NCBI GenBank assembly: GCA_022768945.1
Contig: JALEKY010000064.1
Span: 1 to 55,130, forward strand
Reading direction: 5' to 3'
Source of the DNA: Christensenellaceae bacterium
GTDB lineage: Bacteria; Bacillota; Clostridia; Christensenellales; Borkfalkiaceae
DNA: 55,130 nucleotides
A model generated the notes under the pieces. That model did not search any database. It was not told the DNA's origin and saw only the letters and a list, made by a program, of their open reading frames with translations. The position numbers and the translations under genes were made by a program. Positions 28,020-48,600 of the stretch are shown one piece after another (positions within the stretch are counted from its first letter, which is position 1; each line of letters starts with the position of its first letter).

Positions 28020-28053
28020 TAGGGATTCCATTTCTTATCACTAACTATTTTGC
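28020..28053 (+). repeat. Solo end of the TIR element found at 41770-42026
   Basis: 28020-28047 matches the left terminal repeat at 41770-41797 in 27 of 28 bases, and similarity fades after about 34 bases. No second inverted end is visible before the LysR gene, so it looks like a truncated relic. Confidence 0.7.
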
Positions 28054-41211: not shown

Positions 41212-41418
41212 ATGGACAGACAAGACAGAGCAAAACAGTTTTTATCTTTTGACGCCCTCAAAGGACTGAGAGAAGAACTTAAAAAAAGAGAAGAACGTCA
41301 CTTGAGAGAAGAAAACACCCGGAATTCGGACAACGCAGACGAAGAAAACTACGACGACGCAAGCGAAGAAATACCGTACAACCAAAGCGAAGAAATTCCC
41401 GACGGCGACTGCTTTTAG
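41212..41418 (+). CDS. Short YolD-like protein
   Basis: 68 residues. The N-terminus MDRQDRAKQFLSFDALKGL matches the start of YolD-like proteins, which accompany Y-family polymerases of the UvrX type in Firmicutes and may act as UmuD-like partners. The rest is acidic and low in complexity, and the protein is shorter than typical YolD (about 100). It lies 53 bases after the polymerase stop, with a CGCG hairpin between and no clear ribosome site. Confidence 0.7.
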   Translation: MDRQDRAKQFLSFDALKGLREELKKREERHLREENTRNSDNADEENYDDASEEIPYNQSEEIPDGDCF

Positions 41419-41493: not shown

Positions 41494-41562
41494 TATCGTA
41501 AAGTTTTCTGTGAATTAAAGTTAGGAATTCCATTCCGCAAATTTTTATTCCGCACCGCACTT

Positions 41563-41700
41563 TTATTCCGTTCTGAGAGCCGCCACCGGATCTTTTTTCG
41601 CCGCTTTCTTTACAGGGATAAGTCCTCCGAGAATGGTAATGCCTATGCTTATCAGAATCAAAATCAGCGACGTTCGACTGCTGCGGCAGTCGGTCCTCCG
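41563..41700 (-). pseudogene. C-terminal remnant of an FtsX/MacB-type ABC permease
   Basis: Translating the minus strand from about 41676 to the stop at 41563 gives a last membrane helix and GLIPVKKAAKKDP followed by VAALRTE, the typical end of MacB/FtsX permeases. Upstream the frame loses similarity and no ribosome site or start is present. Only about 35-40 codons remain, so this is a gene fragment, left in the same decayed region as the TIR element. Confidence 0.75.
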
Positions 41701-41769
41701 ATGATCAGTTATTCAATTTAATACGAGCTATTATATTGATTTTAAAAATAAAAGTCAAGCAAAAAAACA

Positions 41770-42026
41770 TAGGGATTCCATTCCTTATCACTAACTATTT
41801 TTGCGGCAATAAATCGGTTTTTGCCGTGTTAAACGAGCCTTTAGTACGCTTAACAATTTCGGTCGTTTGCCTTGCAAAAACGCTTCGCGCCGAAAAGAGC
41901 GTATTTTCAGATGATTTTTTTAAGAGCGCGAACGAAGCTGTGCTTTACGCACTGCAAGCGAGCGTTCGGAAAAAAGGGCTGAAAAGCCGCCTTTTCGGTA
42001 ATTAGTGATGAAGAATGGAATCTCTA
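41770..42026. mobile_element. 257-bp non-autonomous element with 28-bp terminal inverted repeats (MITE-like)
   Basis: 41770-41797 and the reverse complement of 41999-42026 agree in 24 of 28 bases, and both ends carry TA, fitting a TA target duplication. No transposase is encoded; a 90-codon ORF runs through it on the plus strand with no ribosome site. A second, truncated end is at 28020. The right end covers the cca stop codon. Confidence 0.75.
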
Positions 42027-43366
42027 TCTTTCAAATAATCGATAAGTTCCGCTTTTTCGTTTCTGACCTTATCCGACATAACGGCAGACAAAAGAGCGTT
42101 CAAAGCCTCGCCTATCTCCCTGCCGTCGTATCCAAGCGATTTCAAATCGTTTCCGTCCACTTTTAAATCTTTCACGGTAAACGCCATCTTCTCGGACAAA
42201 ATCAAATCGAGCCGAGCCGCAATACGTGTAAGCCGCTCTCTCCTCGTCGCCGTTTCTTTCGTTTCGCTTAACGCCTCGGCAAGCTGAAGAGAAAGAACGT
42301 CTCGCACGGTTTGCTCTCCGAGCTTATTCAGCGAGCGGAGAATGTATTTGTCGCAGCCCTCGTCAATGATTTTCGCTTCGCCGGGCACTATCGGATAGCC
42401 GTGAAAAGCAACGGCAGAAACAAATCTCTTTTTCTCCGCGGAAGAAAGCTTAAGCCTGTCCGCAATGCACTCGCACATTATCGCGCCGCGTTTTTCGTGC
42501 CCGTAAAAATGCCCCGCTGCGTCGCTGCCGACAAAAAAGGTTTCGGGCTTACCCACGTCGTGCGTCAGCGCGGCAAAGCGTAATATAAAGTCTTTTTTCG
42601 TCGAAACGCACGTCAGAACGGAATGAGTGTACACGTCGTAAGCGTGGTAAGGATTCCTTTGGTCAAAATCGAAGCAAAGCGCAAGCTCCGGCAAAACTAC
42701 GGCGAGTATTTCTCTGTAGTCGAAAAGTATCTTCTTTGCGTTATCACCGAGCAAAATTCCCTTAAGCTCCTTAGTCACGCGCTCCGCCGAAAGGTTTAAA
42801 ATTAACCATTTTTGCGCGAAAAGGGCGGCTTTTGTATTTTCTTCTATCTCAAAACCGAGTGCGGAAGCGAATCTCAGCGCGCGCAAAATTCTCAATGCGT
42901 CCTCCCGGAACCTCAGATACGGATCGCCTATCGCGCGGATAACTTTTTTTTCGCAGTCCTCTCTCCCGCCGAATAAATCGACAAAATTCACCCCGTCGAA
43001 ACACATTGCGTTAACGGTAAAATCACGCCTTTCGAGGTCTTTTTCTATCGTACGCACAAACTCTACGCTTTCGGGGTGACGACTGTCAGAATATTTTCCG
43101 TCCGACCGAAAAGAAGTAATCTCAACGCTCTCTTTAAAAATCCGAACGGTAACGGTGCCGTGTCGTATGCCTGTTTCTATAACGCGGCAGCCTTTTTCCA
43201 AAAAAATATCTCGGACTTTTTCGGGAGGAAAAGAACAGGTCACGTCGTAGTCGCCCGCCGGCAAACCGAGAAAATAATTTCTCACCGCGCCGCCGACAAC
43301 GTACGCCTCGCCCCCGCTCTCCTTTATCGTTTTTAAAACAAACTCGCTCGCCGCCGATAATTTCAT
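42002..43366 (-). CDS. cca: tRNA nucleotidyltransferase (CCA-adding type) with HD domain
   Basis: 454 residues from ATG 43366, preceded by GGGGG at six bases; the longer ORF start at 43441 lies between dtd and this site. The nucleotidyltransferase head has GG at 25-26 and D39/D41 (AGDYDVT); an arginine-rich neck and RNA-binding helices follow; an HD domain with AALTHDVGKPETF sits near 270-290. It adds or repairs the 3' CCA of tRNAs. The last residues, RDSILHH and the stop, are encoded by the terminal repeat of the element at 41770-42026. Last gene of the glycogen/GH13/dtd run. Confidence 0.93.
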   Translation of the reverse strand: MKLSAASEFVLKTIKESGGEAYVVGGAVRNYFLGLPAGDYDVTCSFPPEKVRDIFLEKGCRVIETGIRHGTVTVRIFKESVEITSFRSDGKYSDSRHPESVEFVRTIEKDLERRDFTVNAMCFDGVNFVDLFGGREDCEKKVIRAIGDPYLRFREDALRILRALRFASALGFEIEENTKAALFAQKWLILNLSAERVTKELKGILLGDNAKKILFDYREILAVVLPELALCFDFDQRNPYHAYDVYTHSVLTCVSTKKDFILRFAALTHDVGKPETFFVGSDAAGHFYGHEKRGAIMCECIADRLKLSSAEKKRFVSAVAFHGYPIVPGEAKIIDEGCDKYILRSLNKLGEQTVRDVLSLQLAEALSETKETATRRERLTRIAARLDLILSEKMAFTVKDLKVDGNDLKSLGYDGREIGEALNALLSAVMSDKVRNEKAELIDYLKDRDSILHH

Positions 43367-48507: not shown

Positions 48508-48600
48508 TTAGCCGGTGGCGGTATCGTTGGAACGCACCGAAAAGGCGGCTGTTATCTTAGCCGGCGGTGATAGCGTTAGAACGCCATTACCGCCGGCTAA
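48508..48600. repeat. Two related palindromic repeats between glgA and glgP
   Basis: 48557-48600 is a 44-base near-palindrome: TTAGCCGGCGGT pairs with ACCGCCGGCTAA, with an inner GCGTT/AACGC. A degenerate partner lies at 48508-48537 (TTAGCCGGTGGCGG, CGTTGGAACGC). No T run follows on the minus strand, so a REP-like element or mRNA-stabilising structure is more likely than a terminator. Confidence 0.65.

Follow-up and report, generated by a model that had tools for sequence, protein, structure and literature searches.

A TA-bounded MITE-like element at the 3′ end of a cca gene

One end of a 257-bp repeat in the genome of a Christensenellaceae bacterium encodes the final seven residues and the stop codon of a CCA-adding enzyme (Cca). 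The repeat was examined in a 55,130-nucleotide stretch of DNA (GenBank assembly GCA_022768945.1, contig JALEKY010000064.1, positions 1 to 55,130 of the forward strand), hereafter the window. The interpretation that we favor, with a probability of roughly 0.87, is that a dispersed, TA-bounded MITE-like element of this genome inserted into a TA in the final one or two codons of cca and thereby capped the enzyme with the residues RDSILHH and a stop codon. We consider this a clear and recent-looking case in which a conserved housekeeping protein has its end written by a mobile element.

A multicopy element with common ends

The element spans positions 41770..42026 and carries TA at both ends. Its terminal inverted repeats (TIRs) are ∼25 bp long: the left TIR, TAGGGATTCCATTCCTTATCACTAA, is located at 41770..41794 on the plus strand, and the right TIR, TAGAGATTCCATTCTTCATCACTAA, is located at 42002..42026 on the minus strand, where it encodes RDSILHH and TAA in the cca frame. 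Longer inverted-repeat arms of 33 nt (41765-41797 and 41999-42031) are 85% complementary. The ends at 41770 and 42026 were set by the points where other genomic copies cease to match, and these agree exactly with the coordinates given in an earlier note made from the window alone. That note had also called the element MITE-like, a description borne out by its multiple copies, TIRs, and common ends in its own genome.

A BLAST search of this genome assembly (1.66 Mb, 76 contigs, 79.6% complete) returned 53 matches to the element, including seven near-full copies of 255-295 bp. The full copies share approximately query positions 11-267, equivalent to 41770-42026 of the window, and the remaining copies have internal deletions, the shortest measuring 84 bp, or are interrupted at contig ends. 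A copy at G000:C17:31050-31304 is 98% identical. When copies are aligned with their flanks, the flanking sequences are unrelated up to the TA, which bounds nearly all copies at both ends and rarely has one base changed. The left boundary reads TA followed by GGGATTCCATTC, and the right boundary reads GAATGGAATCCC followed by TA. Common ends are shared by the seven near-full and many partial copies, which are dispersed at unrelated sites.

A search with a 24-nt TIR pattern gave 35 matches in this genome and none with the reversed control. The same pattern is absent from 40 related genomes, five of which belong to the same genus, so the TIR family described here is present in one of the 41 genomes searched. 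In two genus members, the only similarity is a 75% match that covers part of the element core, and a search of viral contigs for the right end gave no matches. The 53 BLAST matches and 35 TIR matches, set against no matches with the control and none among the 40 relatives, indicate that the element is not a chance pattern.

No open reading frame is kept across the copies, which differ by many internal indels, and a search of Rfam found nothing at or near gathering scores. The element thus has the length and structure of a MITE (<∼600 bp, non-coding, with TIRs), and we conclude that it is MITE-like, non-autonomous, and multicopy. MITEs derived from IS630/Tc1-mariner elements are short and non-coding, with TIRs and with TA at both ends. 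The cca element shares their TA ends and TIRs, but membership in this group is not claimed because no IS630-type transposase was found and the collections searched contained no empty site from a close strain.

The presence of TA at both ends suggests duplication of a TA target. Since such ends are what TA-targeting transposases leave, we propose that a transposase recognizing TA targets would move this non-autonomous element in trans. However, searches for transposases of the PF13358, PF01609, PF01797, and PF01527 families found none in the 79.6%-complete assembly, and mobilization in trans is for this reason only inferred. An IS630 (DDE_3) transposase with matching TIRs was not found in this incomplete assembly. 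The source of mobilization might be a partner that is missing from the assembly or has been lost.

Two arrangements of copies deserve mention. The ends of contigs C72 and C27 (loci L018 and L016) share sequence, and each carries half an element copy, which suggests that another repeat inserted into a copy that is now split between these contig ends. At C2:7862 we suspected a nested palindrome centered on TA, which would have displayed the TA duplication, but the site proved not to be one.

The C terminus of Cca

The cca gene (42002..43366, minus strand) encodes 454 amino acids from its ATG. The protein is a class II tRNA nucleotidyltransferase with PolyA_pol head (PF01743), RNA-binding (PF12627), HD, and tRNA_NucTran2_2 tail (PF13735) domains, and it matches the Geobacillus CCA enzyme 1miv with an E value of 1e-52. 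No tRNA genes are present within the window.

The last seven codons and the stop occupy 42002..42025 on the minus strand, with the codons for RDSILHH at 42025-42005 and TAA at 42004-42002. The boundary TA is at 42026-42025, and its T completes a cca codon, GAT (D). The codons that follow, AGA GAT TCC ATT CTT CAT CAC TAA, all lie in the right TIR. This arrangement confirms the proposal of the earlier note that Cca receives its final seven or so codons and its stop from the inverted repeat. The consensus right end of the family (AGGGATTCC...), read in this frame, yields these residues as well, and the opposite end, read likewise, gives RDSIPYH and then TAA.

Related Cca proteins were gathered from 35 loci of public genomes and from another 56 genomes belonging to the same order. 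We aligned 22 of these proteins; the relatives can be aligned roughly as far as the residue preceding the junction, and their chains end 0-15 residues beyond it. The closest relative (53% identical) ends one residue past the junction, with ...LIEYVKTT where the window protein has ...LIDYLKD and then RDSILHH. None of the 22 proteins has RDSILHH, and the refutation named in the earlier note, identical C-terminal residues in relatives lacking the element, was thus not borne out. From this comparison, the tail is element-derived and starts about where the protein normally ends.

C-terminal ends of Cca do differ by several residues among relatives, and one could argue that the tail is native, its likeness to the TIR being coincidental or the repeat having evolved from the gene end. 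This is extremely improbable. Beyond the lack of RDSILHH in any relative, the 24-nt sequence recurs at ∼35 unrelated positions of the genome, and similarity to it breaks off at the junction, where TA is found. Copy number and boundaries together refute a native origin.

The earlier note also stated that an insertion at the 3′ end of an essential gene was tolerated by providing a new tail and stop. Both do come from the element. The word "tolerated" is overstated, however, because relatives end within those few residues of the junction, at the natural end of the protein, and almost nothing native needed to be lost. Pfam matches reach residue 445 of 455. Since all recognized Cca domains end before the junction, the insertion was probably neutral. 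Under the favored interpretation, reading from cca into the right TIR caps the enzyme, and the insertion would be harmless because the conserved portion of the tail domain ends ahead of it.

C termini written by MITEs have already been described in Erwinia and Coxiella, and the cca case is the same kind of event. In Erwinia carotovora, the 3′ end of the amidase gene ECA3499 is fused to RU-1, a small MITE-like repeat of enterobacteria; the normal stop is gone, and past the conserved domain both the C-terminal residues and the stop are those of RU-1 (Delihas 2007; PMC2759123). RU-1 thus resembles the cca element in ending a conserved enzyme gene, but it has its own sequence and adds ∼35 residues rather than seven. 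In Coxiella burnetii, the functional genes ubiB, pntAA, mutT, ruvB, and recN share 1-50 bp at their 3′ ends with copies of QMITE1 or QMITE2, and enhC is extended by 33 residues in one strain (PMC5896051). Again the overlap with gene 3′ ends is similar, but these are different elements, and QMITE2 is given direct repeats of 7-9 bp rather than TA. For annotation, odd C-terminal tails reading RDSILHH or RDSIPYH in this lineage should be taken as marks of element ends and not of protein function.

The left flank and the origin of the junction

A clean insertion at TA may have replaced a native stop, although the flanks restore none nearby. When they are joined at one TA, the frame remains open (...YLKDMFFCLTFIFKINIIARIKLNN) for 21 residues past the junction, which is not a typical Cca end. 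Because this join gives 21 more codons and not a nearby stop, the left flank may have undergone rearrangement. The former 3′ end of cca has either drifted or been lost through deletion or rearrangement.

The left flank has several features of its own. A permease-like gene is represented by a decayed C-terminal fragment (...GGLIPVKKAAKKDPVAALRTE stop) at 41563..41703 on the minus strand; the fragment has no Pfam match of its own but matches the end of an FtsX permease at G000:C40 (57% over 35 amino acids). This fragment suggests deletion or rearrangement downstream from cca. A solo TIR-like sequence, TAGGAATTCCATTCC, is present at 41522..41536 on the plus strand, with one mismatch to the 14-nt TIR start. 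Just outside the element, a promoter-like TTGACT-17-TATAAT (41730..41758, minus strand) reads away from cca; its 11 of 12 matches are a match to consensus only, and about one such site is expected by chance in the region. Farther along, a small acidic open reading frame of 68 amino acids with no Pfam match (41212-41415) follows a DinB/UmuC-like gene.

An unlikely, though not negligible, variant of the main interpretation is that no clean insertion into cca occurred. In this scenario the element inserted downstream or was already there, and deletion or recombination fused a truncated cca 3′ end to it, importing the left flank. The tail would still be element-derived. The missing native stop after the single-TA join favors such a fusion, as do the permease-like fragment and the solo TIR-like sequence. 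Gene order does so as well: upstream of cca, all five genus members keep dtd and four also keep the amylase gene ahead of dtd, but the downstream neighbor differs, and in the readable genus members cca is followed by none of the genes that lie downstream from it in the window. However, variable downstream neighbors are also found in genus members without the element, and a complete element bounded by TA on either side is what a straightforward insertion would leave.

Other gene ends and related repeats

At L004:1-830 (G000:C63), an iron-containing alcohol dehydrogenase of normal length has a TAG stop formed at the element boundary, which is consistent with insertion into the TA of its stop codon. 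Open reading frames that run into TIRs at C15:40140, C54:97405, and C40:34641 overlap or oppose more plausible genes and were not counted as element-ended.

The element might instead be retained because it acts as a terminator or as a signal for 3′ processing of the amylase-dtd-cca operon. The 257-bp element has a strong predicted fold (-91.2 kcal/mol, z = -6.9), and a rough reading of open reading frames places most near-full copies a short distance past the 3′ ends of genes. Nevertheless, we regard such a role as improbable, given that the element contains no site resembling an intrinsic terminator and that a 3′ bias is also expected from selection against insertions elsewhere.

Inward reading through the TIR halts translation in two of three frames, either by TAG at the boundary or by TAA after seven codons; the third frame reads on. 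More speculative still is the idea that the TIR is kept for this property, with the family adapted to serve as a portable stop signal at the 3′ ends of genes. If true, insertions at gene ends would be nearly cost-free.

The genome also carries a second family of TA-bounded inverted repeats (TAGCCGGTGGTRATRGCGTT...), found at 48509-48600 of the window and at G000:C73:16261, C5:56571, C74:8433, and other sites. Its pattern has 28 matches, compared with none for the control, and some copies are hairpins of ∼42 bp. Two copies (L148 and L149) have the core of the cca element between second-family ends, such that one interior occurs with two types of ends.

Solo sequences of ∼25 nt that resemble the left TIR are present at 28020-28045 of the window and at C15:14096, C18:2956, C40:34641, C54:2660, C54:95590, and C55:14442 of the G000 assembly. 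No partner TIRs are located within 320 bp of these sites, and the sequences may represent either remnants of the element or a short repeat of a separate kind. At L125:1125-1513 (G000:C40:16204), a DUF4368-containing fragment, probably from a large serine recombinase, starts right at a partnerless TIR of the right type.
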